24,667 nucleotides of DNA from a virus. The position numbers were made by a program, and so were the translations under genes. The notes beneath the pieces were generated by a model. It worked only from the letters and a program-made list of their open reading frames with translations. It ran no database searches and had not been told where the DNA came from. Where the stretch lies: the IMG/VR virus record IMGVR_UViG_3300021960_000481, positions 1 through 24,667 of that record; one strand, 5' to 3'. Positions 10,778 through 23,413 of the stretch are shown piece after piece (position 1 is the first letter of the stretch; each line of letters begins with the position of its first letter).

Positions 10778-11634
10778 TAAGATGCCAATACTTCCTCTGG
10801 AAGTTTATCGTCCATCTCTTCCACAATTTTAGCGTCTTCACCATCTTGATCATTCGGTTTCTTTGATCTAGAATTTTTGTAAGCTGTAAGAACTTCATCG
10901 TTTTCTTTCTTAACAGCCTGTTGAAACACAGTTAGAGTGTCGCTATCTTCTTTTGTAAACTGCAATTCAGTACCAGACTTAGAGTCTAGTACAGGTACAT
11001 AAAAAGTATTACCACCTTTTTTCTGTCTTTCAGTATCAATAGATAACACTTGTTTAAGCATAACTTTACCACTATCTTTTAGTCTTTTGATAGCATTACT
11101 TACAGGTAAAAATGCTGTACCAGATACTCTGTACAATGTGGGTAGATTTTCTACCTTGTGCTTTTCACCATTAGATAAGACCCCATCAAAACTAACTAGA
11201 CCATACACTAATCTATAACATCTGATAGTTCTCTGTATCATTTGCTGATCTGGTGTAAGTGAGTCTCTGTCTTTGTACGGGACTTTACCACAATTAACTC
11301 CACCTAACATATCAATTGCTTCATCTTTGTGAGATGAAAAGATAACTGATCTGTTAACATATTCTGCTTTATCAGTATCATAATGCATGTATTGCATACC
11401 ACTAATAAATGGTCTGAAGTTAACTGGTTTACCATAAGCAACTTTACCTACAGTAGTATCAAACACAGAAAAATAACCAACTGGTATTTGATTACCATCG
11501 TCATCTTCTGGGCTTCTATTAATAGATAATCTAGGAATGCCATCACTACTAGATGTACCATCGTCTTGACCTATAGCTTTCATTATTTGCTCATCGGTCA
11601 TTTGGTTTATATTTATAAGTTCATTGTCTGACAT
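10777..11634 (-). CDS. possible phage ssDNA-binding protein (inferred)
   Basis: 285 residues behind an ideal ribosome site (AAGGAGGTG) and its own strong promoter at 11659-11687, so it is probably abundant. The central part is beta-rich (YFSVFDTTVGKVAYGKPVNF; TLYRVSGTAFLPVSNAI; NTFYVPVLDSKSG). The C terminus is acidic (DQDGEDAKIVEEMDDKLPEE), as in many phage SSBs. It lies between polymerase and nuclease genes, where T7-like phages keep their SSB. No conserved motif confirms this, and it ends LAS rather than in a terminal aromatic. The role is an inference from context, abundance signals and tail charge. Confidence 0.6.
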   Translation of the reverse strand: MSDNELININQMTDEQIMKAIGQDDGTSSSDGIPRLSINRSPEDDDGNQIPVGYFSVFDTTVGKVAYGKPVNFRPFISGMQYMHYDTDKAEYVNRSVIFSSHKDEAIDMLGGVNCGKVPYKDRDSLTPDQQMIQRTIRCYRLVYGLVSFDGVLSNGEKHKVENLPTLYRVSGTAFLPVSNAIKRLKDSGKVMLKQVLSIDTERQKKGGNTFYVPVLDSKSGTELQFTKEDSDTLTVFQQAVKKENDEVLTAYKNSRSKKPNDQDGEDAKIVEEMDDKLPEEVLAS

Positions 11635-22662: not shown

Positions 22663-22944
22663 TTATCTTGATTTTCTTTTGATAATATAGTTTAAAAGTG
22701 TATTAGCTTTAATAGATTGCTCAATTCGTGGTGCTAAAAAGGAATCTCCATAGGTATTTGGTCTTATATTACACCTATTTATCCAGAATTTATCTCTGTC
22801 ATCAGCTTTTTTCTGACGTTTTTCTAGACCAAAAAAAGTTTTATCATTTATATGTGCTGACCATAAAGATATATGCACACTATTTATATCTAACCACTTT
22901 GCAAAATCTTTCATTGCATTTAGATTTAGTAATTTAATATTCAT
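22663..22944 (-). CDS. hypothetical protein, 93 residues
   Basis: The ATG overlaps the previous stop (ATGA), with GAGGGATC just upstream on the mRNA side. Basic soluble protein (MNIKLLNLNAMKDFAKWLDI; GLEKRQKKADDRDKFWINRCNIRP; NTLLNYIIKRKSR). No motif or family recognised. Confidence 0.7.
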   Translation of the reverse strand: MNIKLLNLNAMKDFAKWLDINSVHISLWSAHINDKTFFGLEKRQKKADDRDKFWINRCNIRPNTYGDSFLAPRIEQSIKANTLLNYIIKRKSR

Positions 22945-23108
22945 GAGGGATCGTTGTCTATTAGTTTGTGCACTTCATCAATCTTTAAATTTAATTGATG
23001 CAAGTCACCATAAACATCTGGTTTATCTAAGTATTTAGTTTTAAGTTTAATCATAATTTCATCAAACTTTTTTAACTTTAATTGTATCTGTCTAATTTTT
23101 GTAATCAT
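22941..23108 (-). CDS. 55-residue helical protein following a structured RNA
   Basis: Begins MITKIRQIQLKLKKFDEIMIKLKTKYL and ends EVHKLIDNDPS; strongly helical and coiled-coil-like. Its stop overlaps the next ATG (ATGA). No Shine-Dalgarno site precedes the start, so translation may depend on the structured RNA immediately upstream. Unknown function. Confidence 0.6.
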   Translation of the reverse strand: MITKIRQIQLKLKKFDEIMIKLKTKYLDKPDVYGDLHQLNLKIDEVHKLIDNDPS

Positions 23109-23309
23109 AATTTTATATACAGAGGCTCATGCGTTGGAGAACATATACACTTTGCCAAGCATATACATTTTACCGAACCAACGCACAGGTCTTTTGGACT
23201 CGTAGAGATATCTCACGAAATCCAGACAGTAGGTTTTATTGTTGCAACTACCTACTCCCGACACAGCTAGTCCAGTCTGAATTAAGTTCGCTTCGCTGTG
23301 TCTTTGTAC
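23109..23309 (-). ncRNA. candidate structured noncoding RNA, about 200 bases
   Basis: A gene-free stretch, visibly less AT-rich than its surroundings, directly downstream of a near-consensus promoter. Stems read by eye on the minus strand: GACACAGC (23302-23295) with GCTGTGTC (23267-23260), eight perfect pairs; AGTAGGT (23256-23250) with ACCTACT (23234-23228), seven perfect; TGGA (23224-23221) with TCCA (23198-23195) plus CGT/ACG around the ten-base palindrome GAGATATCTC (23214-23205); TGCGTTGG (23185-23178) with CCAACGCA (23137-23130), eight perfect, enclosing two copies of an 8-base TGTATATG repeat. No open frame fills it. It matches no tRNA, tmRNA or RNase P pattern I know. Function unknown. 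Confidence 0.6.
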
Positions 23310-23315
23310 ATTATC

Positions 23316-23344
23316 ATAATATCATATTGATATTCGTATGTCAA
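23316..23344 (-). promoter_or_regulatory. near-consensus promoter of the structured RNA
   Basis: Minus strand: -35 TTGACA (23344-23339), 17-nt spacer, -10 TATTAT (23321-23316) preceded by TGA (extended -10). Predicted start near 23309, just before the first long stem. Confidence 0.85.
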
Positions 23345-23349
23345 GCAAT

Positions 23350-23385
23350 AAAAAACCCCCAATGTGTCAAGCACAAAGGGGGTTT
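23350..23385 (-). terminator. intrinsic terminator with a TTGACA in its loop
   Basis: Minus strand arms AAACCCCC (23385-23378) and GGGGGTTT (23360-23353), an inner TGTG/CACA stem (23375-23372 with 23366-23363), then T run to 23350. It closes the two-gene unit upstream. The loop contains CTTGACAC, the same words as the promoters' -35 region, but no -10 box at proper spacing. Confidence 0.85.
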
Positions 23386-23413
23386 ATCTTATCTTAGAGG
23401 GAGATAAAAGTTT

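Follow-up and report, generated by a model that had tools for sequence, protein, structure and literature searches.

SAR11 are the most abundant bacteria of the ocean, and pelagiphages are their viruses. Among phage RNAs from other systems, the Put RNA of phage HK022 brings about processive antitermination as RNA only, from sites of about 70 nt with two stem-loops, and the pRNA of phage phi29 is 174 nt long. Comparative genomics has found structured RNA motifs in marine metagenomes and in Pelagibacter (PMC2864571, PMC2704228). For pelagiphages, our literature searches found no RNA of the kind described below. HTVC033P, an HMO-2011-type phage of subgroup IX, ranks among the most abundant known pelagiphages of ocean viromes (PMC9038755).

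The DNA analyzed here, hereafter the window, has 24,667 nt and comes from IMG/VR, where it is a linear virus record (IMGVR_UViG_3300021960_000481). Its closest isolate is HTVC033P, to which several blocks making up 29% of its length are related (megablast), and judged by its sequence the window is a fragment of an HMO-2011-type pelagiphage. A preliminary description had pointed to a near-consensus promoter followed by a multi-stem RNA, which proves correct: a structured RNA lies at 23114..23312, corresponding to positions 1-200 of the covariance model and with its 5' end presumed at about 23312-23309, and belongs to a family of HMO-2011-type pelagiphage RNAs, each about 200 nt long, whose five helices are conserved and covary. 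No strand had been given; the promoter and all family members show that the RNA is encoded on the minus strand, as are the genes that flank it. The stretch is also less AT-rich than its surroundings, as had been noticed, with a GC content of 41% compared with about 25-31% in its neighbors. Like the motifs from marine metagenomes and Pelagibacter (PMC2864571, PMC2704228), this RNA shows covariation, is intergenic, has no assigned function and comes from the same habitat; unlike them, it has no matching model in Rfam 15, and the text of the Pelagibacter paper makes no mention of phage.

A covariance model was seeded with IMG/VR contigs, both close and divergent, that have a neighboring gene in common, and DNA-pattern scans together with model searches led to 16 distinct aligned copies, including that of the window, and to partial copies in L117, L166, L257 and L254 (relatives carry L numbers throughout). 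All homologs come from one viral collection and the exact patterns used favor conserved motifs, so the set provides no estimate of prevalence. Each contig that was searched whole holds one convincing copy. The window RNA scores 224.6 bits and 205.2 bits against models R1 and R2, respectively, its sequence being part of the input to both. By the tests available, the RNA matches no described family. None of the 4227 models of Rfam 15 matched at or above its gathering threshold in the window or in 19 relative loci, and a permissive Rfam search of the region returned sub-threshold matches only, mostly to the neighboring terminator. ARAGORN found 0 tRNA or tmRNA genes, in line with the earlier view that this is not a tRNA, a tmRNA or a known riboswitch. 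With the RNA and three relatives as BLASTN queries, a set of 50,697 phage records yielded nothing credible and no RNA-bearing isolate, and a whole-genome pattern scan produced 41 matches, none of which fitted the model. The covariance model had no match in 385 alphaproteobacterial genomes, a search run under stricter filters and without a positive control, and when applied to HTVC033P, HTVC023P, HTVC104P and CRP-345 it revealed no copy within the first 50 kb; weak matches of 14-17 bits in HTVC033P (inside its tail fiber gene) and HTVC104P were dismissed as noise.

Covariation is the decisive evidence for a structured RNA family, with compensatory changes beyond chance. In the 16-sequence alignment, which was fitted to the covariance model and so leans in its favor, standard pairs fill 88.9% of pair cells and both sides have changed in 41 of 57 pairs (138 cells). 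The column-shuffle control reached 71.6% standard pairs, 24 pairs and 46 cells, with 0 of 500 shuffles attaining the observed values, and sliding the partners by 1-3 columns lowered pairing to 36-45%. The same fold emerges from four sequences aligned independently with MAFFT, with compensated changes in eight pairs. Folding energy alone is weak and merely suggestive by comparison. The window RNA folds at -65 kcal/mol (z = -4.5) and none of 200 shuffled sequences folds as well, so that the preliminary description's expectation was borne out. Nevertheless, the z-score discriminates poorly in this window and was rejected as sole proof: 200-nt tiles of the window have a mean z of -1.1 (sd 1.5), a few of them at -4 or below, and the z-scores of true relatives run from -0.2 to -4, several reaching only -0.2 to -2. 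Chance folding, or a coding gene misread as an RNA, might be suggested by those near-zero scores and by two ORFs in the window (92 aa antisense, 45 aa sense). The probability of this is negligible, and covariation far above both controls refutes it; in addition, every frame is interrupted by a stop in at least one member, and in the absence of a common stop-free frame the RNA is therefore not a protein-coding gene, as the preliminary description had held.

The RNA, 199 nt in the window, folds into a multibranched structure in which P1 closes the ends around the hairpins P2-P5 (all minus strand). The separate stems described earlier are all present, and P1 is an addition to them. P1 pairs AUGUACA (23305..23311) with UGUAUAU (23115..23121) and is the least secure helix, with 79% of cells paired in the 16-sequence alignment. 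The P2 hairpin (23260..23302; stem 23302-23295/23267-23260) has 8/8 pairs in the window between GACACAGC and GCUGUGUC, and all eight show both-side changes in the same alignment. P3 (23225..23259; stem 23259-23251/23233-23225) is built on GUAGG/CCUAC plus flanks, with 95% of its cells paired, and its loop presents the palindrome GUUGCAAC at 23248-23241, which is kept in every full-length copy except L248. A kissing dimer through this palindrome is possible, although the palindrome is broken in L248. P4 (23195..23224), with GAGAUAUCUC at its tip, appears in the window fold and in the alignment, and 6/7 basal and 3/3 apical pairs have changed on both sides. P5 (23128..23187) is a long hairpin with a GGCA apical loop and the base GCGUUGG/CCAACGC, fully paired (7/7), and shows both-side changes in 7/10 basal and 11/12 upper pairs. 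Loop and stem lengths differ among members. Two linkers are conserved and unpaired: AGCC between P5 and P1 (23124..23127), and CCURUG between P4 and P5, which reads UCURUG in most closer relatives of the window and CCUUGG in L261. Candidate pseudoknots in the 16-member alignment, such as J5/1 GCCU with a P3 strand, were complementarities either invariant or poorly supported, and none is claimed.

The RNA has a predicted promoter of its own, recognized by sequence only, at 23316..23344 on the minus strand (-35 TTGACA at 23344-23339, a 17-nt spacer and -10 TATTAT at 23321-23316; 11/12 consensus matches), and begins 3 nt past it. Every member with upstream sequence has TTGAC, 18 nt and TAnnnn, the last of these lying 3-4 nt ahead of the RNA; in L035, TTGACT-17-TATAAA can be read directly, an automatic script having chosen a different hexamer pair. 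Upstream, a terminator-like hairpin with a U tract (AACCCCC...GGGGGUUUUUU; 23350..23386, minus strand) ends the preceding gene, and it also stands just ahead of the RNA site in HTVC033P and L005; the automatic terminator scan misses it because its loop is too long. Further terminators lie downstream in the window at 22113-22081 and 22037-22016. Terminator and promoter are in places fused, in that a U tract is followed after a few bases by the -35 element of the next TTGACA promoter, as at 22113-22044 and 23386-23316 on the minus strand, an arrangement that recurs across the window and its relatives. Directly 3' of P1, most members have no terminator of their own and run into a small ORF. In L145, a terminator lies about 110 nt downstream of the RNA, and only ORFs of at most 25 aa start between them; this contig also has a promoter-like site 3' of the RNA and another terminator upstream of the RNA promoter.

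The RNA invariably opens a predicted transcript and is always co-directional with the downstream genes, which may be early or late genes, and these genes vary. In the window, a 55-aa ORF with no named function (22941..23108, minus strand) follows immediately, preceded by UAUAUAAAAUUAUG; it has no Shine-Dalgarno sequence, as the preliminary description had remarked, and protein-family searches gave no names for the small neighboring genes. A 29-aa membrane peptide of the MKDFYLLLIYFAIMFVLSYLLAWYNGYLI type is directly 3' of the RNA in L013, L012, L049, L117 and L261, whereas other small ORFs lie between the two in L137, L157, L164, L254, L255, L256, L257, L259 and L260; in seven contexts the peptide begins 15-430 nt after the RNA. 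An ATG about 5-10 nt past P1, likewise with no Shine-Dalgarno sequence, occurs in the window, L013, L012, L049 and L117, and L157-type downstream genes carry a GGAG site of their own. In L013 the unit apparently consists of the RNA and the peptide, closed by a terminator. L248 has the next promoter, read as TTGACA-17-TATAAA, immediately after the RNA, and in L035 the RNA is followed by another RNA-like element and, beyond it, by a promoter, with no sizeable gene between; in L145 and L248, too, the next promoter or terminator is reached with no sizeable ORF on the way.

The same locus can lose or exchange the RNA. The HTVC033P gp05-gp08 region has homologous neighbor genes, including the 55-aa ORF (gp08), and the same preceding terminator, but gp06 and gp07 occupy the place of the RNA. 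In L005, the 55-aa ORF comes almost immediately after the terminator and there is no RNA, and L258 and L264 retain the promoter and the 29-aa peptide and lack the RNA. L049 and L263 are 92-94% identical on both flanks and fully different from RNA position 9 to the start of the peptide. The unrelated insert of L263 (1030-1210, plus strand) likewise folds (z = -2.7), with no fit to the covariance model; it ends with a 12-pair hairpin, CCCUCUAG/CUAGAGGG, and has the same promoter and peptide flank as L049. The RNA is thus an accessory cassette, absent from close relatives, found in varying contexts and swapped in one near-identical phage.

What the RNA does can be argued from this distribution. 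The preliminary description had left a choice between a stand-alone phage RNA and a leader that controls translation. With about even confidence, we favor an accessory RNA gene, probably trans-acting, over a leader for one gene; the downstream gene varies or is missing, and the RNA is lost or swapped while promoter and gene stay. Host RNA polymerase would produce a short transcript that begins with the RNA and whose 3' end may arise by processing past P1 or at the unit's terminator, as in L145. The functional product would be the compact closed fold. It would act in trans, and most likely its conserved unpaired motifs (the P3 loop and the CCURUG and AGCC linkers) would bind a protein or an RNA of the host; the small genes 3' of the RNA would be mostly passengers. 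A trans-acting RNA is preferred over a cis element because the L145 and L248 units contain no sizeable ORF, and because the locus swaps whole RNAs, as accessory host-interaction genes are swapped. Against a free trans-acting RNA, most members would need processing, the constant 5' position and co-direction are what a cis element would show, and the 29-aa peptide is often close by. It is a tentative further step to suggest that the RNA serves SAR11 viruses in host takeover or counter-defense, perhaps by serving a host factor as decoy or scaffold, and that the locus is an exchangeable one at which unrelated structured RNAs follow the same promoter in different phages. A leader such as a riboswitch, thermosensor or translational operator for the adjoining gene could be envisaged where P1 might hide the nearby start codons that lack a Shine-Dalgarno sequence, and the recurrent peptide would be its natural target. 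We nevertheless consider it unlikely: a leader for a single gene does not fit because the downstream genes are variable or, in L035, L145 and L248, missing, and the RNA precedes no one gene or functional gene set. Moreover, L157-type genes have a ribosome site of their own, and both the peptide (L258, L264) and the 55-aa ORF (L005, HTVC033P) occur without the RNA.

A role in transcription in cis is a rather doubtful prospect, if a better one than the leader. Like Put, the RNA is folded, comes right after a phage promoter, would act as RNA and has variable downstream genes; its nascent fold might bind its own RNA polymerase and cause terminator read-through or altered pausing. The start of the RNA at the predicted transcription start in every member, the downstream genes that are not fixed and always co-directional, and the terminators downstream in the window, L145 and L013 would all suit such an element, and the constant 5' position and missing terminator keep it alive. 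It is hard to reconcile with a single copy per contig rather than one at each main promoter, with the L013 unit of apparently only RNA and peptide, with the next promoter following at once in L248 and L145, and with close relatives that have the same terminators and lack the RNA. Unlike Put, with its two stem-loops, the RNA has five helices over about 200 nt, and its read-through is putative. It would be more improbable still that the structure merely protects or insulates the 5' end of early phage mRNAs with no specific partner. Its position, its replacement by another folded sequence in L263 and its variable loop and stem lengths would be expected of such an end; the conserved unpaired motifs and the fixed five-helix layout exceed what it needs. 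A packaging or virion RNA is very improbable, although, as in phi29 pRNA, a similar length, an own promoter and a multibranched junction fold are found, and the palindromic loop could allow self-association. The contigs encode a terminase large subunit, but the RNA has no fixed location relative to it or link to packaging genes, matches no Rfam model, and is absent from close relatives that share terminase and structural genes, and because of this absence a packaging role does not fit. At most, the RNA works like known kinds, namely phage non-coding RNAs or a Put-like element.

Most small genes and intergenic stretches of the HTVC033P group are unexplained, and a covarying RNA family gives a concrete handle on them, in the form of a covariance model, a promoter, a predicted 5' end, the RNA-less alleles of L258 and L264 and the swap between L049 and L263. 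With the natural alleles and the swap, a trans role, a cis role and a leader role can each be tested separately.

Several other elements accompany the RNA. A protein of about 350 aa is encoded near it in L248 (4686-5717), L035 (2798-3853, minus strand) and L164 (3881-4945), the L248 copy having no Pfam or PHROGs match. In some phages, a second folded, conserved intergenic element of about 110 nt, with no Rfam match, lies behind the RNA (L012 3221-3340, plus strand; L035 4788-4678, L117 8221-8110 and L254 6826-6715, minus strand); letters in its inner stem are swapped with complementarity kept (GUUCC/GGAAC vs ACACC/GGUGU). The 29-aa peptide, with a single membrane helix, is mostly but not exclusively found behind the RNA (L013 797; L049 1294; L117 8329 and L157 6131, minus strand; L164 2981, plus strand), with RNA-less occurrences near 5174 in L258 and near 527 in L264 (both minus strand) and a weak, unannotated 46% match in HTVC103P (10806-10889). 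Past the peptide in L257 (440-520, plus strand), a long hairpin-bounded element, GAGATAGTAGG...CCTACTATCTCG, is possibly another structured RNA.
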